Origin: a virus
Direction: 5' to 3' (one strand)
Length of the DNA: 27,717 bases
Virus record (IMG/VR): IMGVR_UViG_3300041402_000215
Span: 1-27,717 of that record
Positions 4,007 to 27,115 of this stretch are shown here, one piece after another. Position 1 is the first letter of the stretch, and every line of letters begins with the position of its first letter. The notes below the pieces were generated by a model, which saw only the letters and a list, made by a program, of their open reading frames with translations, made no database searches and had not been told where the DNA came from. Made by a program: the position numbers and the translations under genes.

Positions 4007-4022
4007 TGCGGAACGTTCCGCA
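4007..4022. repeat. Dispersed palindrome copy 2, compensated variant (TGCGGAACGTTCCGCA)
   Basis: Differs from the consensus at two symmetric positions (T to G in the left arm, A to C in the right arm), so the palindrome is intact. It lies one base after the scaffold stop and 53 bases before the capsid ATG. Confidence 0.92.
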
Positions 4023-4075
4023 CTTGAGTCCGAACACTCGGGTAGCTCGTAACTACTAATGAAAGGAAAAGCGAC

Positions 4076-5733: not shown

Positions 5734-5749
5734 TGCGTAACGTTACGCA
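5734..5749. repeat. Dispersed palindrome copy 3
   Basis: Perfect TGCGTAACGTTACGCA between the HTH-like gene (stop 19 bases upstream) and the gene at 5773 (ATG 23 bases downstream). The AAGGAG ribosome site is downstream of it. Confidence 0.95.
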
Positions 5750-7185: not shown

Positions 7186-7201
7186 TGCGTAACGTTACGC
7201 A
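7186..7201. repeat. Dispersed palindrome copy 4
   Basis: Perfect TGCGTAACGTTACGCA beginning one base after the stop of the secreted-protein gene and ending 14 bases before the ATG at 7216. Confidence 0.95.
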
Positions 7202-8724: not shown

Positions 8725-9959
8725 CAACTCACGGAACATTTACTTTTGATGCAGAAAATGACTCGGATTGTCAGCGTTTTGATTTTACGAGTGATGGTAA
8801 CGGCCAGACCAGTGGAGTGCTTATATCTGGTCCTGGTACTGCTGCTGATTTTTGTCATGATACCAATGGCGGTAACTCAGCAAACGTAGGCCCAGATTTT
8901 GGACAGGGTGGCGACCCCGACGGTTATTTATATACTGAATGTTCATCACCAGGAGCATCCGGTGATGAATACACAATGACTTTTGATACCCTCCTTGATG
9001 CACTTGCTGAACAATGGCAGTTCAATTTTTATTGGTGTCAACGAGGTCCAGCAGCAGGAAACAATGACGCATTTTGTGAGGTACAAATAAATGAAGATGG
9101 TGGTGGATGGGTAACAGTAGCAACTTTTGGGGGTGTGGGCGAAGATTCAACTAGTACCGTATGGAATTATGAATCTGTTGATCTATCTGAGAGTGGAGTA
9201 AATGTAGACGAAAATACTCAAGTAAGAATTCGCATTGAGTCTCAGTCTGAAACTTCATGGCACGCAGATTTTGGGATTGATACTGTAACTATTGTTGGAA
9301 GTCCTGCGGGAATCACAAGTGTTACGCCCTCCGAGTTTGACATGGACAATGCTGATATAGACATTACATCTTCGGGTGACGTATTCGATGCAAGCGGAAA
9401 TGATGTCTACATTTCAGATGCTGATACGCTGGCAGGATCAGCAAATGAAGTAGATATATCTTCAGCTATCAACACTGAGTCTACATCTCTTATCAATCTT
9501 GACCTTACGCAATTATCTGCTGGCGAATTAGCTTCATTACATACATTAGGTCCAAGTGCCACGCGATATATTATTGTTGACGCCGTAGGCGGTGAATATT
9601 CTTATCCGATAACCCTTCATAGACCTGAAGCATTTGTGATGTCACTTAGTAGTGAGTTTGCTCCAGGGGCTACTACAGTACAGCTTCTGGCTCCAGCAAC
9701 AAAGACAACTGGAGATTTTAATGCAGGTCGAATCGAAGAAGTAGCTAACCCTGCAACTGCGATTGATATAACCGATGAGAATTACACTGAAGTTGAATCT
9801 TGTTTTCAAGCAACTGTTAATAGTCGTGAAGTTCAATATGATTTTAGAATTGAAGGATTAGACACATATACCGTAACACCACAGCTAACTATTTCAGCTG
9901 CTGTGGGAAACGCCATGCCAATGGCTATGAATGATTTTAGGAGAAGGAGAGTCCAATGA
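8721..9959 (+). CDS. Putative fiber/adhesin with jelly-roll and TIG-like domains
   Basis: The 412-aa protein is acidic and beta-rich. Residues 1 to about 195 look like a MAM or concanavalin-like jelly roll: WQFNFYWCQRG, FCEVQINEDGGGWVTVATF and VRIRIESQSETSWHADFGIDTVTI, the last being the usual closing strand of that fold. Residues of about 198-305 start with ITSVTPSEFDM, typical of an IPT/TIG Ig-like domain. A third beta part ends in a basic tail DFRRRRVQ. The start is GTG 8721, which overlaps the upstream TGA (GTGA), and the stop overlaps the next ATG (ATGA), so the three appendage genes are translationally chained. Receptor or sugar binding on the virion is inferred. Confidence 0.7.
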   Translation: MTTHGTFTFDAENDSDCQRFDFTSDGNGQTSGVLISGPGTAADFCHDTNGGNSANVGPDFGQGGDPDGYLYTECSSPGASGDEYTMTFDTLLDALAEQWQFNFYWCQRGPAAGNNDAFCEVQINEDGGGWVTVATFGGVGEDSTSTVWNYESVDLSESGVNVDENTQVRIRIESQSETSWHADFGIDTVTIVGSPAGITSVTPSEFDMDNADIDITSSGDVFDASGNDVYISDADTLAGSANEVDISSAINTESTSLINLDLTQLSAGELASLHTLGPSATRYIIVDAVGGEYSYPITLHRPEAFVMSLSSEFAPGATTVQLLAPATKTTGDFNAGRIEEVANPATAIDITDENYTEVESCFQATVNSREVQYDFRIEGLDTYTVTPQLTISAAVGNAMPMAMNDFRRRRVQ

Positions 9960-11254
9960 ATTTTTTAAAACAGTCTACAGCATACACACCTATCATCGGG
10001 CCATTTGTGGATGAGACAACTGGTAAAGACGCTGAAACTGGTCTGACCATCACACAGGCAGAGGTACGTTTGTCTAAAAATGGCGGTAACATGGCTCAAA
10101 AGAGTGAAGCGTCATCTTGTGTTCATGATGAGCTTGGGTATTACACTTGTCCTCTGGATACAACGGACACTGGTACTATAGGCAAGCTTCGGCTTATGGT
10201 GCATGAGACTGGAGCACTCCCTGTTTGGGAAGATTTTCATATCCTTGCTGCGAATGTTTATGATTCTATATTCGGAGCAGCATCTGATAAACTTCAGGTG
10301 GATACTGTTGAAGTCAGTGGTACGGGTCAGACAGCTAATGATAATGGCGCAGACATCAATGCCATTCTTGCAGATACGGATGAGCTTCAAACTGATGACA
10401 TTCCTGCTGCTATCGCTGCTCTGCCAACTGCTGTTGAAAACAGAACTGAAATGGATTCCAACAGCACTCAGCTTGCAGCTATTGTAGCTGACACGAATGA
10501 ACTTCAGACAGATGACATACCTACCACGTTAGCTACCATAGCGGGTTATCTGGATACTGAAATAAATGCTATCCTTGCAGATACCAATGAACTCCAGTTA
10601 GATTGGATGAATGGTGGTAGACTCGATCTGATCATTGATGCCATTCTTGCAGATACGGATGAACTCCAAGGCGATGATATTCCAACCTTGATTGCTGCTC
10701 TACCAACTGCTGTTGAAAATAGAACTGAAATGGATTCCAACAGCACTCAGCTTGCAGCTATTGTGGCTGACACGAACGAACTCCAGAGCGATGACATTCC
10801 TACTTCCATCGCTGCTCTGCCTACAGCAGTAGAGATTCAAGCTGAAATGGAAGAGAACGGTGCGAGTATGCTTGACTCCTTGCGTGACGGATTAACTGAT
10901 CAACGAATGGCTAATCTGGATGAATTGGGAGCTGCGAATCTGCCATCTGACATTGATGCCATACTTGCAGACACTAACGAACTCCAGGTTGACGATGTTC
11001 CTGGTCTGATAGCAGCTTTGAATAACCTTTCTGTCGCTGATGTATGGACTGCGACTGAAGACATAACTGGTGATGCTCATACTTACAAGTCTATTCTGGC
11101 CAGACTGTACTCTCACATGAACAATGAGATGAACATCACTGACGCTACTGGATACATGGAATTGAGAAATGCTGCGGATAGTGCGGAAATGGCTAACTGC
11201 ACAATCACTGATAACGCCACAACGACTCAGAGAACTGAACTGACCTGGGCGTAA
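9956..11254 (+). CDS. Repeat-containing tail fiber-like protein
   Basis: The 432-aa protein has a beta-rich N-terminal domain (to about residue 110) with TGLTITQAEVRLSKNG, resembling a virion attachment module. It then has six copies of an ADT[ND]ELQ motif between about residues 135 and 355, most preceded by AIL or AIV and followed by an Asp-Asp-Val/Ile-Pro linker. Between them are IAALPTAVENRTEMDSN segments, one present twice with nearly identical DNA. The C-terminal part includes a SVADVWTATEDI segment and ends in TTTQRTELTW. Such helical repeats fit a trimeric coiled shaft. ATG 9956 overlaps the previous stop. A palindrome copy with one mismatch follows the stop. Confidence 0.78.
   Translation: MNFLKQSTAYTPIIGPFVDETTGKDAETGLTITQAEVRLSKNGGNMAQKSEASSCVHDELGYYTCPLDTTDTGTIGKLRLMVHETGALPVWEDFHILAANVYDSIFGAASDKLQVDTVEVSGTGQTANDNGADINAILADTDELQTDDIPAAIAALPTAVENRTEMDSNSTQLAAIVADTNELQTDDIPTTLATIAGYLDTEINAILADTNELQLDWMNGGRLDLIIDAILADTDELQGDDIPTLIAALPTAVENRTEMDSNSTQLAAIVADTNELQSDDIPTSIAALPTAVEIQAEMEENGASMLDSLRDGLTDQRMANLDELGAANLPSDIDAILADTNELQVDDVPGLIAALNNLSVADVWTATEDITGDAHTYKSILARLYSHMNNEMNITDATGYMELRNAADSAEMANCTITDNATTTQRTELTWA
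10421..10782 (+). repeat. Internal 83-bp direct repeat in fiber gene
   Basis: Bases 10421-10503 and 10700-10782 match at 79 of 83 positions by eye. Both encode PTAVENRTEMDSNSTQLAAI and the following VADTNE. They lie in the same frame, 279 bases apart, so unequal recombination would shorten or lengthen the shaft by 93 residues without breaking the frame. Shorter copies of the ADTNELQ unit flank them. Confidence 0.85.
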
Positions 11255-11258
11255 TAAC

Positions 11259-11274
11259 TGCGTAACGTTCCGCA
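11259..11274. repeat. Dispersed palindrome copy 5, one arm changed (TGCGTAACGTTCCGCA)
   Basis: The left arm is consensus and the right arm carries the C seen in copy 2, so one base pair is broken. Outer bases extend the match to AACTGCG...CGCAGTT (22 bp with one mismatched pair). It ends 12 bases before the ATG at 11287. Confidence 0.92.
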
Positions 11275-13835: not shown

Positions 13836-14346
13836 ATGCGTAACGTTACGCAGGTTCCGAGAAACTGATATGCCCAGTTTAGTTCATCGGTTAGATATTC
13901 TTATGCCTGATACTGACATGCAAAGTATGATACTAACTGCATCTTCTGGTTTTACTTTTACTATTTCAGTCAATAGTCATCCGGCTGCAATCATAGGAGC
14001 TAACATAATGTGGCCTGGAGTAGCTCAAGTATGGGCTATGTCTTCTGAATTAATACGTGGTTACGGGCGAACCTTCACAAAAATGGTGGATGAACTTTTA
14101 CGTCAAGGGGCTAGAGTTAATAAGTTACGTCGTTATCACGCTATAGTTAATGGCTCTGATATGGAGAACGTACGGTGGCTTTATACTCTTAACTTTGAGT
14201 ATGAATTTTGTATGAATAGTGCTGCACCTGATGGGTCAAACGTTTTTGGATATGTAAGATGGGAGGATAAAAATGGGCGGAGGACCAGACAAACCAAAAC
14301 CAAATTACGAGAACATGTGGACCAATTACTCGGAGTGGCTGCGTGA
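13807..14346 (+). CDS. gp13-like internal/accessory protein with GNAT fold
   Basis: The protein is 179 aa from ATG 13807; the frame also has TTG 13795 and ATG 13870. The segment TLRRFRETDMPSLVHRL fits strand 1 and helix 1 of the GNAT-like proteins found after the nozzle gene in podoviruses. Later MWPGVAQVWAM and the YHAIVNGSDMENVRWLYTLNFEYE stretch match the acceptor-side and C-terminal motifs. Because TLRRFRETD precedes ATG 13870, a start there would lose the first strand, so I prefer an upstream start, although no strong ribosome site is visible. In that case palindrome copy 6 is translated as Cys-Val-Thr-Leu-Arg. No clear acetyl-CoA P-loop (Q/RxxGxG/A) is visible, so catalysis is doubtful and a structural role is more likely. 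Confidence 0.78.
   Translation: MEKLQKKHSRCVTLRRFRETDMPSLVHRLDILMPDTDMQSMILTASSGFTFTISVNSHPAAIIGANIMWPGVAQVWAMSSELIRGYGRTFTKMVDELLRQGARVNKLRRYHAIVNGSDMENVRWLYTLNFEYEFCMNSAAPDGSNVFGYVRWEDKNGRRTRQTKTKLREHVDQLLGVAA
13837..13852. repeat. Dispersed palindrome copy 6, within the start region of the gp13-like gene
   Basis: Perfect TGCGTAACGTTACGCA, starting one base after the nozzle gene stop. It is read in the frame of the gp13-like gene as Cys-Val-Thr-Leu-Arg if that gene starts upstream, as its conserved N-terminus suggests. Confidence 0.95.
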
Positions 14347-15260: not shown

Positions 15261-15276
15261 TGCGTAACATTACGCA
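15261..15276. repeat. Dispersed palindrome copy 7, centre variant (TGCGTAACATTACGCA)
   Basis: The central CG is CA; both 7-base arms are consensus. It lies five bases after the gp14-like stop and 12 bases before the ATG of the 749-aa gene. Confidence 0.93.
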
Positions 15277-15288
15277 CTTAGGGATACT

Positions 15289-17538
15289 ATGGCTACTAAA
15301 CTACCCCAAATAGGATATAGAAGAACTCAGTTGAGAGGTTCCCTTGGACGAGAAAGCGCATTTGCCCCTATTGGTGAAGCACAAGCTCTTGGAGCTGCTG
15401 CTGAAAGTATAGGGGAGTCAGCTAAAAAGATATACACTAAGCATTTAGAATTGCGTTTAGAAAGTGTGGACCTCGAAACACAGAATCAGATAAGCCGATG
15501 GGAAACCGAGAATAAATCTAAAGCATTTCATAAGGCTGAAGATTTATCTGAGGAGTTGGAATTTGATAGAACTCATACGATAGTTGACGTAAATGGTAAT
15601 AAAGTAGAACAGTTAAGAGAGCAAATCCCTGCTTATGAAGTGTATCCTCAGCTTTATCGTAGGCAGATGCAAGCTATTCTTGAAGCTCAATCAGAACGCA
15701 TACCTAATGAGAAGATACGAGGTCAATGGTTTACGGGTCAAATGACCACGTTAAACAAACAATATGCCAAGGCTATGGAAGCTTCGGTTAAAGAGCAGGA
15801 AAAATATCAAGAACGTAGAACCATTCTTAATGCTAAAGAAGCACTCGAAGCGGGTAACTACCATTTAGCTATTGAAATGGCTAAAGGGCTAAACGATCCA
15901 GTTCTTCGTCAACAAACTTTGGACACTATTAATAAAACAAAAGAAACAGATGACTATAACTTAGCTATCATAGATGAAGATATGGAAATTATACAAGGCT
16001 CTATAGATTTTTTGCGCCTTGAAAACTATCATGACATAGGGTATCTAAGTAAAAAAAGTCGAGAGTTTTGGATTGCAAAACTGGAAAGGAAAAAAGATCA
16101 GCTCCTGCGACGAGCTGATGACCAACAAAAAATTAGCGGTGAGATGACTAAGTTTATGGCTCGTCAAATGATAGCAAATTTAAAAGAACAACAGCAAGTA
16201 CCTGTTGACCAAATGGAGGATGCGATTAAGCAGTTGATGGGGTTGAACGCCATTGGTGTTACAGGTACATTACCATTAGCTGTTCAAATAGATCAATGGG
16301 CAAAATTTTCTTACGCTGCTGGCCCGATAACTCGATTGCTGCCATCAGTTCAAAAAAATGTTACTGCTAACTTTATAGATACGTTAGATATGAAGAATAA
16401 TCTTTTGGATTTTCAGATTGGCAAAGCATTGGAATCCGCTGTTGTAGCGAGTACAAACTTATACTACAAAGAGGGCAGGGAATGGGCTTATAATAATGGT
16501 CATATGTCCCCTCAAGAATTTATGCCTGTCACCCCAAATAATATGGCTGAAGCTTTAGCTAATAACCGAGAACCTGGATTACGGTATTTCAAGATAACGG
16601 GTAAAGCGGATGCTCTTATGGATACTCCAGATGCAAGGGTATTAGTTAATTTTATAAATGGTTCACCGAGAGAGCGTAAGCCTGCAATATTTGCTGAGAT
16701 AGTAAAAGGAGCAGGTGACGCATATCCTTTAGCCGTTCAGCAACTCAGGGATAATGGACTTGAGGAAGGCACAGCTGCGACTATGGTAATATCTTATATG
16801 AAGGGTGAAGTGGTTGGGAATATAATGTTGGAGGGTGAAGCACGACTAAAAGATAGAACAACAAATTGGTGGACTCCAGAAGTATCTGATGCTTTTGCTG
16901 ATTACACTCCTGTAAAATTCGGTACTGCTTTTGTACTGAATCCTGAACATAAAAGAACGTTAGAGACTGCTCTTAAGTATGCTACTGCTGGTCTTCTAAC
17001 TAGAAGTGATATAGAAAAAGGCACTACAAAACTTTTAAAAGCAAGAATACAAGAAGCCGAACGTTTGATAGGCCCGTTAGTTGAACATGGTGGGTCTACG
17101 GTATTAGCTCCAGAGGGTTTCGATCAAGAAAATTGGACGACAGCTATAATGACCACAGCTTCTATGGAGTTAGCTAATATGAATGATGGAGCGTTACCTG
17201 TTGATAGTCAAACAGGTAAACCTATAGCTCTTTCACGATTAATGAATATGATACGAAAGGACGAGAATACCGTTCTGCAAAATGATAATATATTCGGGGG
17301 CGGTAGTTATGACATACTAATCTATGGACAACCTGTGTTAAGCACTAGCGGTAAAAGTTATAAGTTTAAACCGCTACCAAATCCCACTACGAGAGATGAT
17401 GTTCGGAAAGTTGAAGAGGTTAACGAGTTTATACGGATAAAAGAAGCAGAAGCAGAAGCATTAACTCAAGGTGTAACTGGTCCGATAATTGAGTTTCATA
17501 GACAAATGAGACAGCGAGCATTAGAGGGAAATAAATAA
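15289..17538 (+). CDS. Internal virion protein, T7 gp15-like
   Basis: This is a 749-aa, almost entirely helical protein between the gp14-like and gp16-like products, where T7 has gp15. The N-terminal segment of about 60 residues starts PQIGYRRTQLRGSLGRESAFAPIGEAQ, then long amphipathic helices with ALEAGNYHLAIEMAKGL and repeated Gln/Glu/Lys-rich coils follow. The C-terminal part includes FGGGSYDILIYGQPVLST and ends Glu-Gly-Asn-Lys. In T7, gp15 is a core component that enters the periplasm to make the DNA tunnel. A GGG ribosome-like site lies 12 bases after a palindrome copy. Its stop overlaps the next ATG by one base. No enzyme motif seen. Confidence 0.82.
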   Translation: MATKLPQIGYRRTQLRGSLGRESAFAPIGEAQALGAAAESIGESAKKIYTKHLELRLESVDLETQNQISRWETENKSKAFHKAEDLSEELEFDRTHTIVDVNGNKVEQLREQIPAYEVYPQLYRRQMQAILEAQSERIPNEKIRGQWFTGQMTTLNKQYAKAMEASVKEQEKYQERRTILNAKEALEAGNYHLAIEMAKGLNDPVLRQQTLDTINKTKETDDYNLAIIDEDMEIIQGSIDFLRLENYHDIGYLSKKSREFWIAKLERKKDQLLRRADDQQKISGEMTKFMARQMIANLKEQQQVPVDQMEDAIKQLMGLNAIGVTGTLPLAVQIDQWAKFSYAAGPITRLLPSVQKNVTANFIDTLDMKNNLLDFQIGKALESAVVASTNLYYKEGREWAYNNGHMSPQEFMPVTPNNMAEALANNREPGLRYFKITGKADALMDTPDARVLVNFINGSPRERKPAIFAEIVKGAGDAYPLAVQQLRDNGLEEGTAATMVISYMKGEVVGNIMLEGEARLKDRTTNWWTPEVSDAFADYTPVKFGTAFVLNPEHKRTLETALKYATAGLLTRSDIEKGTTKLLKARIQEAERLIGPLVEHGGSTVLAPEGFDQENWTTAIMTTASMELANMNDGALPVDSQTGKPIALSRLMNMIRKDENTVLQNDNIFGGGSYDILIYGQPVLSTSGKSYKFKPLPNPTTRDDVRKVEEVNEFIRIKEAEAEALTQGVTGPIIEFHRQMRQRALEGNK

Positions 17539-19304
17539 TGCCTTCCGTATACGGGTTAAGTCATAGCTATGAAAAAGACTTAAGGTCCAGGGGTTTTGCA
17601 ACTCTTCAGCCTAAGTATAGCATTAGTTATTTCGATCAAGCAATTAATCTTGGGTTTTATCACTCTCCTCTCATGGGTCGTCATGTTGTAACTAAGGGTC
17701 AAAAACAAGATCGCTATCAACAGTTAATGGATGCCAGTGAGTCCGGTGTGTATCCAAAAAAGATACTGGATCATTTTGGTAGCGATCACAATGCTGCTGC
17801 TATATGGGGCAACAATAACTTAGACCTTAAGATACCAACTAATGACGATATAGATAAAAAGATAAGGGAAGACCTACGGATAGTCGAAAAGAGTTATGAA
17901 GAAACAATGGCAAGAGCTACTACAGGTCAGCATGTAGCTGCTTTTGCTGGTCAAGCTATACCTGAGATACTAAATCCCTATTTGTTACCATCATATTTTA
18001 TTGGGTATGGTGAAGCTGCCATAGCTGGCAGGTTTCTTAAAGGTTTTGGTAGAGTAATATTAGCTGAAGCTGCTATAGAAACAGCATACCAAGTAGACAA
18101 ATACCATTGGATGAATCGTGTCAGTGAAATGTCTCCTGGTGAAGCTGTTTTAAATATTGCTTTAGTTACAGGGCTGACTGCGGGCATAGGAGTTACTGCT
18201 GCTGGTTTAAGTCGTGGGATGAAACGACTTCTGCGTAAGTCAAATGCGCGTCAGATAGAACAGCTTGGTAATGATTGGGCGTTACATAAATTCACTCAAG
18301 CTGCTGATGAGTTAGCAAGAGCAGATGATTTAGTGATTAGGGGGACTAGATTTATTCGTGCAGGGCTTGAAGCATTTGAAGAACGATTTAAATTCCGTCC
18401 AAAAATAAGAATATATGATACGTTTGAGGACATACCTGAAAGGTTAAAAAAGCAATACGCTGAACGAATAGCTGAAGCAAAGAAATCGGGTATACCTATT
18501 GCAGCTGAAGGAACAGCAGTTACTGGGTTCTGGACTAAGGGAACTTTTAATGTGGTTGCTGCGAATATAACCAGTGCTAAAGGGGCACTTGGTACAATAT
18601 TTCATGAAGCTATAGGTCATAGCTATTTTAGAACTGTTCCCACTAAGCAGATTGATAGCATATACAGACAGTTCAAAAATAATATCGAATCACTTGCAAG
18701 GCGTAAAGGAATATCAACTAAAACTAAAGCAGGAAGAAGAAAAGCCACTGAAGAATACGCAGTAATCAAATTAACTAAAAATATAGAGAGTGCCACCGCT
18801 AAAAAAATCACCGCAGAAATGGGTGAAGTGTTTAAGAAAAAAGGTAAGGTAAGATTCCTCAATAGGATAGCCAGAGAACTGGGTATATCTGACGAAGACT
18901 TCAAAACGATTCTTAAAGACATGGGAATCCCATCCCTCAAGGAAGCTACTCCCGTAAAGCTTGCACAAGTATATACACTGTTTAGGCAAGCAGGATACGC
19001 GCCAAAAAGAACTAAAGCTGTTGACGCTATTAAGGGTCTTCAAGCAGAAGATAAATACCAAAATGTAACTCGACCTCGCGCTCAGGTGCGTAACGTTACG
19101 CAGGTGAGTGATGTCGATGACGAAGTACTTGACGCAGGTTTCGAGCAAATAATAAAGGAGAATCCTGATTTAACCATACCTGAGAGAGTTGAGCTAACTG
19201 CTGCTGGAGAGGAGATTATAGAGCGCAAAGCAACAGACATACTTGATGAACTTGATGCTAGAGTAGAATTAGCTAATAAATATAAGGAGTGTATCATTGG
19301 CTGA
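17538..19304 (+). CDS. Internal virion protein with zincin-like motif
   Basis: The 588-aa protein has hydrophobic helices at about 131-180 and 203-224, suggesting membrane insertion on ejection. A metallopeptidase-like segment GTIFHEAIGHSYFRT has HEAIGH at 356-361. The spacing is His-Glu-x-x-Gly-His, one residue longer than the standard HExxH, and this form is known from large polyvalent phage proteins (HEVVGHYG-type). Basic helical stretches follow. A copy of the dispersed palindrome (19087-19102) is translated as VRNVTQ near residue 517-522. It starts on the last base of the gp15-like gene and overlaps the next gene by 8 bases. It may be half of a split gp16-like ejection protein. Peptidase activity on peptidoglycan or host protein is inference. 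Confidence 0.75.
   Translation: MPSVYGLSHSYEKDLRSRGFATLQPKYSISYFDQAINLGFYHSPLMGRHVVTKGQKQDRYQQLMDASESGVYPKKILDHFGSDHNAAAIWGNNNLDLKIPTNDDIDKKIREDLRIVEKSYEETMARATTGQHVAAFAGQAIPEILNPYLLPSYFIGYGEAAIAGRFLKGFGRVILAEAAIETAYQVDKYHWMNRVSEMSPGEAVLNIALVTGLTAGIGVTAAGLSRGMKRLLRKSNARQIEQLGNDWALHKFTQAADELARADDLVIRGTRFIRAGLEAFEERFKFRPKIRIYDTFEDIPERLKKQYAERIAEAKKSGIPIAAEGTAVTGFWTKGTFNVVAANITSAKGALGTIFHEAIGHSYFRTVPTKQIDSIYRQFKNNIESLARRKGISTKTKAGRRKATEEYAVIKLTKNIESATAKKITAEMGEVFKKKGKVRFLNRIARELGISDEDFKTILKDMGIPSLKEATPVKLAQVYTLFRQAGYAPKRTKAVDAIKGLQAEDKYQNVTRPRAQVRNVTQVSDVDDEVLDAGFEQIIKENPDLTIPERVELTAAGEEIIERKATDILDELDARVELANKYKECIIG
19087..19102. repeat. Dispersed palindrome copy 8, inside a coding sequence
   Basis: Perfect TGCGTAACGTTACGCA within the zincin-like gene, about 200 bases before its stop. 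With flanking bases it is translated as Val-Arg-Asn-Val-Thr-Gln. It is the only copy well inside a gene. Confidence 0.95.
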
Positions 19305-21648
19305 TCCCTGTATAGAAATAATAAGTACATTTGAGAGTCTCGTTCAAGAACATGGTGGAGATGATTTGGTAAAAGAGTTTCGTGCCATGTCTAAAGGACA
19401 GAGAGATAAGCTAGCAGATGAAATAATAGGCGAGATGGATATAAAAACTCGTCAAGCTAAATTGACTGCTGCTGCTTGGGACTCTGTAGTACGTTATCTT
19501 GATGATACAAAAAGTGCTAAAGATATGCGTAAAGCCTTTGCAGATTATAATGCAGGTCACGGAGTACGCATGAGGGGTATAGATAGTCTCGAACGCAGAA
19601 CCGAATCTATATTTCATGGGTTTACTGCGACAATGGCAGAGGGGCTTGAAAAGTATCAACGCAGATTCTTTGGCTTAACTCATAGTAAACTTGGACAGGG
19701 TAACATAATAGATGAGTTGTATGTTCCTGGAGTTTCTGGTGATAAAGATGCTGTTGCTTTTGCTACCATCTATAAGAAATCACATGACGCTTTAGTAACT
19801 TTATTTAATAGGGCTGGTGGTGACATTAAAAGACTTCCCACATATAATCTACCACAATTTCATGACTCTATACGCATAAGGGGAGTAGATAAAAAAGAAT
19901 GGCTTGATTTTGTAAAAGGGTTAATACACACGGATAGATTGGTGTATAAGAGAACTGAGGAGGGGTTACAATCTGTTCCTGTGTCTAATGAAGTAATGGA
20001 CGAAATGCTTGGTAGAGTTTATGATAACCTTGCATCTGGTGGTGTGATACATAAAGAACTTGCTACTAATCCTCATGTTAGAAGAATGTTAGGAAAACAC
20101 CATCAAGAACATCGTGTTCTGCATTTTAAGGATTCGGAATCATGGAAAGCATATGCTGATAAATTCGGAGCCAGTGACTATGTTCAGTCAATGTTAGCGC
20201 AAGCACAATTAATGTCAAGAGAAATTGCTGCTATGCAAAAGTACGGACCTAATGCGGATATGTTAGTGCGTAAAGCTAGGTTGCATGTGCAGAAAGCGTC
20301 AGGTGACAGAAACGCAGGAAGACTCGGAGAAGCTATATACGAACAAATTATGAATCGAACTCCAGTTAATAACACTGTTGCAGCAGATGTTATGAGGGGT
20401 GTCAGAAATATATCTGTCGGAATTAAAATAGGAAAAGCAGTTATATCCGCAGTATCAGATTTAGGATTTTTCGGGCTAACTAATTTCTATAATGGTATGC
20501 CTGTTATGCGTGGGTACTTGAACTTTATAGGCAGTCTTGCTACAGGCGGTAAGGCGGGTAGAACTACAGCTGCTCATGTGAATTTAGGCGCAAGATACGC
20601 TATTGATAATGCTCAGTCAGCCTATAGAGTAGCGGAAGTAATGGGGGTCGGTACTTGGACAGGTAGGTTTGCTGATGTGATGGTTAAGGCTAGCGGTCTA
20701 AACTACTGGACTAACGTGGCAAGACAGCAATATGGATTGAATACTTTGCATCGTTTAGGAGAACTCATCAATAGACCTTTCAATAACTTAAATCCAAAAA
20801 TACAAAGGATGTTTCGTAAGTATGGTATATCTTCTGATAACTGGGACGCGATGAGAGCTGTTCCTTTATACGAACAAGAGGGAGCTAGATACTTAAATCC
20901 TGGAGCCTTTGCGGATGAAGAACTTACGCACAAGATAATTGGTGCGGTAATGGAAGAAACTGATTTTGCCATACCCGAACCGGGAGCTAAGGCTATGACT
21001 CTACTCCGTGGAGGTTCTGCTGCTGGTACAATTCCAGGAGAAATCACAAGAAGTATGGGTATGTTTAAATCCTTTGCTACTTCAGTTATTGTAACCCATT
21101 GGCTCAGAGCACTTAACATGGCTCCCGCAAATGGGCTAGCTTATTTTGCTTCACTGTTATTAGGTACAACTGCTTTAGGGGCTGTAGCTATACAAGCTAA
21201 ACAAATAGTTGACGGTAAGACTCCTATGGAAATGGATCGTGCTTTTTGGTCATGGGCTTTCCTGCAAGGAGGTGGCACTGGTATCATGGGTGATTTCATC
21301 TTCCAAGATCATACCAGAGTTGGGTCACTATCTGAATTTGCTTTAGGGCCACTAGCTGGTGATGCCAGTATCGTACTCGGTCTTACTCTAGGTACGGCAA
21401 ATGATTTTATAACAGCAAGAGATAAGATAGGAGAAAAACTTGGCGCAAGAGCAGCCAGGAGCATTGATAAACTCGCACCTAATCTGTGGCAAACTAACTT
21501 ATTACTTAAACGGTATTTAACAGATCATATTCAATATTTGGTTAACCCTAACTGGCAGAGTCAGCAACGCACTATGGAGCGTAGGATCAGAAAAGAACGG
21601 GGCCAGAACTACTGGTGGGAGCCAAGAGAACTAACCCCAGGTGCGTAA
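19297..21648 (+). CDS. Large internal virion/ejection protein, gp16-like C-terminal part
   Basis: The 783-aa protein starts with TTG 19297, which has TAAGGAG at good distance. Mostly helical, it contains segments shared by large podovirus ejection proteins: ERRTESIFHGFTATMAEGLE, LPQFHDS near 210, and AVSDLGFFGLTNFYNG. The end has FITARDKIGEKLGARAA, LAPNLWQTNLLLKRYLTDH, and a closing GQNYWWEPRELTPGA that I associate with the C-terminus of the family. Hydrophobic patches at about 385-420 and 610-650 could insert into the inner membrane, as proposed for T7 gp16. No lytic transglycosylase domain was seen, unlike T7 gp16. The stop codon lies inside palindrome copy 9. Confidence 0.82.
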   Translation: MADPCIEIISTFESLVQEHGGDDLVKEFRAMSKGQRDKLADEIIGEMDIKTRQAKLTAAAWDSVVRYLDDTKSAKDMRKAFADYNAGHGVRMRGIDSLERRTESIFHGFTATMAEGLEKYQRRFFGLTHSKLGQGNIIDELYVPGVSGDKDAVAFATIYKKSHDALVTLFNRAGGDIKRLPTYNLPQFHDSIRIRGVDKKEWLDFVKGLIHTDRLVYKRTEEGLQSVPVSNEVMDEMLGRVYDNLASGGVIHKELATNPHVRRMLGKHHQEHRVLHFKDSESWKAYADKFGASDYVQSMLAQAQLMSREIAAMQKYGPNADMLVRKARLHVQKASGDRNAGRLGEAIYEQIMNRTPVNNTVAADVMRGVRNISVGIKIGKAVISAVSDLGFFGLTNFYNGMPVMRGYLNFIGSLATGGKAGRTTAAHVNLGARYAIDNAQSAYRVAEVMGVGTWTGRFADVMVKASGLNYWTNVARQQYGLNTLHRLGELINRPFNNLNPKIQRMFRKYGISSDNWDAMRAVPLYEQEGARYLNPGAFADEELTHKIIGAVMEETDFAIPEPGAKAMTLLRGGSAAGTIPGEITRSMGMFKSFATSVIVTHWLRALNMAPANGLAYFASLLLGTTALGAVAIQAKQIVDGKTPMEMDRAFWSWAFLQGGGTGIMGDFIFQDHTRVGSLSEFALGPLAGDASIVLGLTLGTANDFITARDKIGEKLGARAARSIDKLAPNLWQTNLLLKRYLTDHIQYLVNPNWQSQQRTMERRIRKERGQNYWWEPRELTPGA

Positions 21649-21657
21649 CGTTACGCA
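21642..21657. repeat. Dispersed palindrome copy 9
   Basis: Perfect TGCGTAACGTTACGCA containing the TAA stop (21646-21648) of the gp16-like gene. The downstream fiber ribosome site AGGAG starts at its last base and the ATG follows after 9 bases. Confidence 0.95.
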
Positions 21658-25410: not shown

Positions 25411-25815
25411 ATGGGAGACTATTTCTATAGTGAACGGTCTAGAGGTAATCTAGATTCTTGCGATACACGAATTATCGCCTTGTTTAATGAGGTGATAAAG
25501 GACATCGACTGCACTATCATATGTGGTAGAAGACAGAAAGCTGCACAGGACGAAGCATATCGGTTAGGCCGTTCAACGAAAAAGTGGCCGGATAGTAAGC
25601 ACAACAAGATGCCATCTCCTGCGGTCGATGCTGTCCCCTACCCTATTGACTGGATTGATCTTAATCGCATGGCTTGGTTCGCGGGATGGGTCATGAGGAC
25701 TGCATCCTATATGCAACTGCCCCTTCGATGGGGAGGGGATTGGGACATGGACACTCATGTCAGGGAGCATAGCCTAATTGATATGCCACACTTTGAGCTA
25801 ATACTAACTGCGTAA
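25411..25815 (+). CDS. Endolysin, M15-type peptidase
   Basis: The 134-aa enzyme should cleave peptidoglycan cross-links or stem peptides at lysis. Zn-binding pattern: Ser-Lys-His (His 64), then Asp 73 in PSPAVDAVPYP, and His 127 in DMPHFE. Asp 124, three residues before the last His, sits where the catalytic acid is in this family. The N-terminal GRRQKAAQDEAYRLGRSTK is the usual helix before the Zn site in phage M15-type lysins. It has no signal peptide and no cell-wall-binding domain, so it depends on a holin. AGGAGA precedes the ATG. The Ala-stop (GCG-TAA) at its end lies inside palindrome copy 10. It opens the lysis cassette. Confidence 0.92.
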   Translation: MGDYFYSERSRGNLDSCDTRIIALFNEVIKDIDCTIICGRRQKAAQDEAYRLGRSTKKWPDSKHNKMPSPAVDAVPYPIDWIDLNRMAWFAGWVMRTASYMQLPLRWGGDWDMDTHVREHSLIDMPHFELILTA

Positions 25816-25824
25816 CGTTACGCA
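25809..25824. repeat. Dispersed palindrome copy 10
   Basis: Perfect TGCGTAACGTTACGCA containing the TAA stop (25813-25815) of the endolysin gene, 17 bases before the ATG of the secreted FN3 gene. Confidence 0.95.
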
Positions 25825-27083: not shown

Positions 27084-27115
27084 AGCTGAGGTGCGTAACA
27101 TTACGCACCTCAGCT
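27084..27115. repeat. Dispersed palindrome copy 11 with long arms, terminator-like
   Basis: The core TGCGTAACATTACGCA (27092-27107, centre CA) is extended by AGCTGAGG on the left and CCTCAGCT on the right. This gives 15-bp perfect arms around CA. It lies after the last membrane-protein gene of the lysis cassette. No run of T follows (TATATAGGAG), so rho-independent termination is uncertain. Confidence 0.9.

Follow-up and report, generated by a model that had tools for sequence, protein, structure and literature searches.

Dispersed 16-bp palindromes at the gene junctions of a podovirus late region and its relatives: putative dyad DNA sites read by a dimeric phage protein of drifting specificity

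Repeated sequence elements dispersed over phage genomes have been described in several settings, and those most like the element analyzed here are the repeats of the Cluster O mycobacteriophages and the parS and NBS sites of ParB and Noc. In the sections of PMC4351075 that concern these repeats, Cluster O phages (Corndog) are described as carrying more than 30 dispersed 17-bp dyad sites that lie both in intergenic regions and in genes, mostly off promoters, and that are not oriented by transcription; Corndog also encodes a ParB-like protein, gp90, and the function of the repeats is given there as unknown. The parS and NBS sites are 16-bp palindromes present in multiple dispersed copies, and the specificity of the proteins that read them can be switched by four residues (PMC4368675, PMC7383237, PMC8429893). 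Other repeated elements include (i) SPBRE of the Bacillus phage SPbeta, which occurs in many intergenic places and is bound by one phage protein, MrpR (PMC10516654); (ii) the Cluster A stoperators, numerous repressor sites across the phage genome (PMC9283540); (iii) the Cluster K start-associated sequences, repeats located just upstream of starts, the inverted-repeat part of which varies between phages on both half-sites (PMC3203893); and (iv) the 20-bp inverted repeats of phage phiVC8, four copies of which were noted without a function (PMC4802629).

The palindromes described below resemble the Cluster O repeats in being dispersed, dyad-symmetric, both intergenic and genic, and mostly not linked to promoters. 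However, Cluster O has one sequence in one cluster, with a 3-bp central spacer, and the same sections of PMC4351075 describe no relatives with a switched sequence at the same junctions. The parS/NBS design is found both in our phage and in its relatives, although the consensus in our phage, TGCGTAACGTTACGCA, is neither parS (TGTTCCACGTGGAACA in P. aeruginosa) nor NBS, the candidate binding protein has no recognisable CTPase domain, and the phage sites are spread genome-wide at gene junctions. SPBRE is located in the promoter regions of a temperate phage (PMC10516654), whereas the palindromes show no promoter enrichment and lie at structural operon junctions; stoperators are asymmetric and transcription-oriented (PMC9283540), whereas the palindromes are near-perfect dyads; and the Cluster K element has a 13-bp asymmetric, oriented core 3–7 bp from the start codon (PMC3203893), whereas the palindromes are symmetric, lie 9–53 nt from starts, and are also found inside genes and between convergent genes. 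The phiVC8 repeats are the same type of element in a relative, for which our scan gives 9–10 copies as opposed to the four published; their link to the palindromes of other phages is not made by PMC4802629.

The window, i.e., the whole 27,717-nt (27.7-kb) virus record analyzed, is the late region (late half) of a podovirus, a bacterial virus, and encodes terminase, portal (phrog_332), major capsid protein (MCP, phrog_3437), tail proteins and a phrog_684 virion protein. Allowing three mismatches or fewer, it contains 11 copies of the palindrome, compared with 0.05 expected, and none of the shuffled sequences reached this number. Ten of the 11 are located at gene junctions, mostly 1–19 nt past a stop codon or with a TAA within the palindrome, and the next ATG lies 9–53 nt from these junction copies. 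Seven copies have the consensus sequence: copy 1 (1254–1269), which holds the in-frame TAA of the terminase gene and is followed 12 nt on by the portal ATG; copy 3 (5734–5749); copy 4 (7186–7201), with a stop codon 1 nt before it; copy 6 (13837–13852), downstream of a tail protein gene (phrog_376); copy 8 (19087–19102), the one copy not at a junction, which lies within ORF 17538–19304 about 200 nt upstream of the phrog_684 gene; and copies 9 (21642–21657) and 10 (25809–25824), which enclose the in-frame TAA of the phrog_684 gene and of ORF 25411–25815, respectively. Copy 2 (4007–4022; TGCGGAACGTTCCGCA) lies 1 nt after the upstream stop and 53 nt ahead of the major capsid ATG, and copy 5 (11259–11274) reads TGCGTAACGTTCCGCA. 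Copies 7 (15261–15276) and 11 (27092–27107) both read TGCGTAACATTACGCA and have an ACAT centre (CG to CA); in copy 11, extended arms (AGCTGAGGTGCGTA...TACGCACCTCAGCT) bring the number of perfect pairs to 14. Separately, ORF 9956–11254 contains imperfect tandem coding repeats at 10354–11017, with units of approximately 67–117 nt and ILADTNELQ-type segments.

Searching IMG/VR with the window's site returned multi-copy matches only in contigs of the window's own phage, and most of the other matches were single and chance-like. Among these contigs, in which capsid and portal are 100% identical, L018 reaches further upstream; the early half of the phage was not found among them. L018 carries four additional copies, at 379 (TGCGGAACATTCCGCA), 796 (TGCGGAATGTTCCGCA), 1150 (TGCGTAACGTTCCGCA) and 1739 (TGCGTAACGTTACGCA), the first two in an AT-rich non-coding stretch ahead of the late promoter, which is of the consensus sigma-70 type (TTGACA-17-TATAAT, L018:1028–1056), and the third between this promoter and the small terminase gene (TerS), the first late gene. 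The AT-rich non-coding stretch between the early and late genes (L018:190–1027) contains, besides its two palindromes, half-copies (ttgttccgcacttg, aggtgcggta) and many actatctgatatta-type repeats, and is a possible origin or control region.

A sequence-only reading had noted a symmetric double change in copy 2 and a right-arm change alone in copy 5, and both were borne out: relative to the consensus, copy 2 carries T5>G together with A12>C, and copy 5 only A12>C. The four L018 copies include the symmetric G/C form twice and the half-changed form once, so that over all 15 copies positions 5/12 are T/A in 10, G/C in three, T/C in two and G/A in none. By an exact test, the half-sites are only modestly coupled over the 15 sites (P = 0.021), and the window's 11 alone do not show the coupling (P = 0.14). 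As 12 of the 16 core positions are invariant in this phage, only one arm pair holds covariation information, and a formal count of pairs over core and flanks did not exceed that of shuffles, save weakly for the covariation score (74/500). Flank complementarity within this phage alone was likewise not significant (P 0.2–0.5; P 0.13–0.47 in a family-wise permutation). The symmetric change at copy 2 is real, yet by itself modest evidence; mirrored substitutions are not in themselves evidence of RNA structure, and the window's genome alone cannot settle whether the symmetry originates in RNA or in DNA.

De novo palindrome scans were applied to the genomes of annotated relatives, the nearest of which show 44–49% identity, and to 155 loci, mostly from environmental relatives. 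Relatives with 44–51% capsid or portal identity have multi-copy palindromes of their own, in which the 16-bp design is kept, the arms differ and the junctions are shared. The families are GTGTCG-AC[GA]T-CGACAC in phiVC8 (form GTGTCGACGTCGACAC), GT[AC]CTG-AYRT-CAG[GT]AC in K300, GGTGCC-A[CT]GT-GGCACC in L120, GGTGTT-NYRN-AACACC in L195/L200, [TCG]GTTCC-AYRT-GGAAC[ACG] in L239 and L242, GTCCCG-AYRT-CGGGAC in G010/G011, and, in about 11 copies, the hairpin family GGTAGTCG-NYRN-CGACTACC (TAGTC[GT]-NYRN-[AC]GACTA) of L241 (genome G012) and L121. The loops of this last family vary (GCAA, GTGA, GCAC, TTAC, etc.) and have a pyrimidine-purine (YR) centre in every case. The genome of L242 (G005) carries 28 copies; the scan found no palindrome family in ZP6, HTVC010P and most other near-complete contigs. 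Copies from one genome have arms that are 93.5% identical, as compared with 39% for copies from different genomes. Of 98 copies, 97 have a YR step at the centre, and 88 keep the dyad across the would-be loop, positions A7/U10 being complementary. In G005 (L260/L261, contig of L242), the asymmetric centres are TG on the top strand nearly throughout, the exception being at position 92, regardless of gene direction, a pattern suggestive of C-to-T bias on one strand or of an orientation set by replication or packaging.

The junctions at which these different sequences reside recur among genomes. Sites are found 25–54 nt upstream of TerS in six genomes, 21–27 nt ahead of the portal gene at the TerL/portal junction in five, ahead of MCP in four, and 20–37 nt downstream of MCP in eight, there with several different arm sequences; these distances are approximate, since ortholog starts were projected by tblastn. 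Relatives also have a site at the TerS/TerL junction, and four genomes have one within the gene preceding phrog_684, a placement similar to that of the window's copy at 19087. Further sites lie between convergent genes and in non-coding DNA. Gene direction was taken from a simple longest-ORF caller, which put some copies wrongly 'inside' ORFs. Neither sigma-70 promoters nor promoter hexamers were enriched at or near the sites, nor was a -10 element at any offset (90 copies), so that a classical repressor role is not indicated.

The location of so many copies close to stop codons might suggest terminator-like or REP-like elements after each gene, and some phiVC8 copies were indeed called terminators by WebGeSTer (PMC4802629). 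We consider this very improbable: most copies lack a T-run, a scan of the window scored only the copy at 15261 as terminator-like (minus strand), and the copy at L018:1150 sits between a consensus sigma-70 promoter and the first late gene.

The reading that symmetry or base pairing is selected had left two options, a dimeric protein site or a six-pair RNA stem with an ACGU loop. As an RNA, the element would be an intercistronic hairpin with a 6-bp stem and a tetraloop that processes or protects late mRNA or tunes translation of the next gene. The position of the copies just past stop codons and 9–53 nt ahead of ATGs is compatible with this, as are a Shine-Dalgarno sequence and start within 75 nt downstream in 63 of 90 copies (27% of controls), the long perfect stems at 27092, at L018:1739 and in L195, L200 and L239, and the ordinary UUCG hairpins that occupy the post-MCP junction of other relatives. 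No RNA families and no tRNAs were detected in the window. Under selection for RNA pairing, the arms read in transcript sense should admit G.U pairs but exclude A.C pairs. Yet the transcript-sense arms from 10 genomes, counted over true family members only because chance hairpins dominate a count of all hairpins of the relatives, contain 13 G.U and 12 A.C pairs alongside 825 Watson-Crick pairs, whereas a positive control, the structured capsid-leader motif of the same phage group, contains seven G.U, no A.C and 62 Watson-Crick pairs. Lacking the G.U preference of this control, the palindromes do not appear to conserve RNA base pairing. Moreover, sense and antisense strands fold alike (91 copies, Wilcoxon P ~0.5). 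An RNA tetraloop needs neither complementary loop positions nor a YR centre, and the YR step is a feature of flexible DNA centres. A generic hairpin, furthermore, would not require the copies of one genome to be identical in sequence, nor would it be expected between convergent genes or in the non-coding DNA upstream of the late promoter. We thus regard RNA hairpins as unlikely. What stood of the earlier claim is the symmetry, which is conserved across many related phages; its RNA-pairing part did not. Equal numbers of G.U and A.C, equal folding, a dyad that runs through the loop and a YR centre lead us to conclude, from sequence comparison, that the symmetry is probably a property of the DNA, and favour the dimeric protein site over the RNA stem.

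The motif used as the control looks like an undescribed RNA motif. It is conserved: of 109 major-capsid leaders, 17 carry it as NNNNGG-GTAGC-[hairpin]-GTCC-NNNN, in which the outer stem covaries. A further 12 have a circular permutation of it, GTCC-[hairpin]-GGGTAGC; the window is one of these, with the element at 4027–4050 of its capsid leader (GTCC-GAACACTC-GGGTAGC). The element is also present in L126, L128, L198, L114, L115, L113, L105, L106, L107, L242 and L239, and in several relatives it lies downstream of an extended -10. An Rfam search with it gave no match beyond one chance match.

In several relatives, the arms extend past the core and are copy-specific yet self-complementary, as in cttatattagg...cctaatataag (L239:6277). 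Pooled over families, this extended pairing exceeds that of permuted arms (P 2e-4; longest-run statistic 0/5000), a result unexpected of a plain dimer site. Because the copy-specific pairing is strand-symmetric, its simplest cause is template-switch correction of quasi-palindromes (PMC8794818), an established repair mechanism (PMC8794818, PMC7202029). A single mutation like that of copy 5, followed by one such switch, would also yield the paired change of copy 2. The compensated changes might then be purely mutational, one arm being copied onto the other during replication with no selection for pairing, and the almost purely Watson-Crick arms are in line with this. As a full explanation we find it quite unlikely, since identical cores at 11–28 places per genome, conserved junctions and the YR centre are left unexplained, and template switching could act only on top of another constraint.

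Because the copies are identical within a genome and change between genomes at fixed junctions, a trans-acting factor is implied. The relatives offer two candidates. A DUF3102-like protein, phrog_9688, is encoded by phiVC8 (34621–35421, minus strand), K300, G010, G011 and G021, with a DUF3102 match above cut-off in G010 and G011; a different, ParB_N-like protein is found only in G005 (L242) and G012 (L241). One or the other is encoded by each of the six near-complete genomes that have sites, as compared with one of the nine that lack them (P 0.0014), in a post hoc test that ignores the relatedness of these genomes and in which one of the nine, G019, was scanned over half its contig. In an AlphaFold model of phrog_9688 (mean pLDDT 77), the most probable PDB matches are ParB/Noc DNA-binding domains (7bnr 0.84, 7ng0 0.82, 6sdk 0.60, 6s6h 0.54), but no PDB match falls below E 0.001 and the Foldseek E-values exceed 1; the predicted likeness to ParB is suggestive only. 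Across 20 genomes no protein matched Pfam ParB_N above cut-off, the G005 and G012 proteins being weakly ParB-like; a 210-aa protein of G005 has no profile link to phrog_9688, and an AlphaFold model of the G005 ParB-like protein, built without an alignment, has a pLDDT of 36. Among the L239/L242 sites are copies of P. aeruginosa parS2 (TGTTCCACGTGGAACA), the others deviating at the centre or in the outer pair, and a host ParB could therefore also be recruited there. The unrelated Proteus phage PM 116, picked for its DUF3102-like protein, likewise carries a palindrome, TTGTCCAACA-C-TGTTGGACAA; it occurs four times, once within an annotated terminator. These candidates come from relatives and do not identify the binder of the window's phage, of which the analysis covered the late region and the stretch upstream in L018.

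We consider it somewhat probable that the palindromes are dispersed dyad DNA sites for a putative phage-encoded, fast-evolving dimeric DNA-binding protein of drifting specificity. Repetition, symmetry, concerted change, conserved junctions and the absence of an RNA signature are seen in the sequences themselves. Located at gene junctions, each palindrome would consist of a pair of inverted 7-bp half-sites that flank a central YR step, and one dimeric protein would recognise all sites in its genome. The copies of one genome would then change together, as all must fit one protein, while the occupied junctions stay; in copy 2 both half-sites would be of the variant type (G at position 5), and in copy 5 only one, the other being normal. 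The foremost candidate for the binder would be a ParB/Noc-type HTH protein, phrog_9688 in phiVC8-type relatives and the ParB_N-like protein in two others, one of which has sites that match Pseudomonas parS exactly. The inferred protein may, by analogy, serve to mark or coat the DNA of the phage, or to block or modulate transcription from one operon into the next. More tentatively, it is possible that in this widespread group of lytic podoviruses parS/NBS-like sites, spaced along the genome at conserved junctions, are read by the phages' own ParB/Noc-derived protein, its CTPase domain sometimes lost, and that this protein changes specificity in concert with dozens of sites, so that each phage would have a code of its own for genome marking or coating.

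Dispersed phage palindromes, such as those of Cluster O and phiVC8, have so far been without a function. Different palindromes at the same junctions amount to a natural experiment, in which genomes can be compared for site sequence, candidate protein and junction; with this set it could be tested how a DNA-binding protein shifts specificity in step with its dozens of sites, and whether phage genomes are among the targets of ParB/Noc-type proteins.
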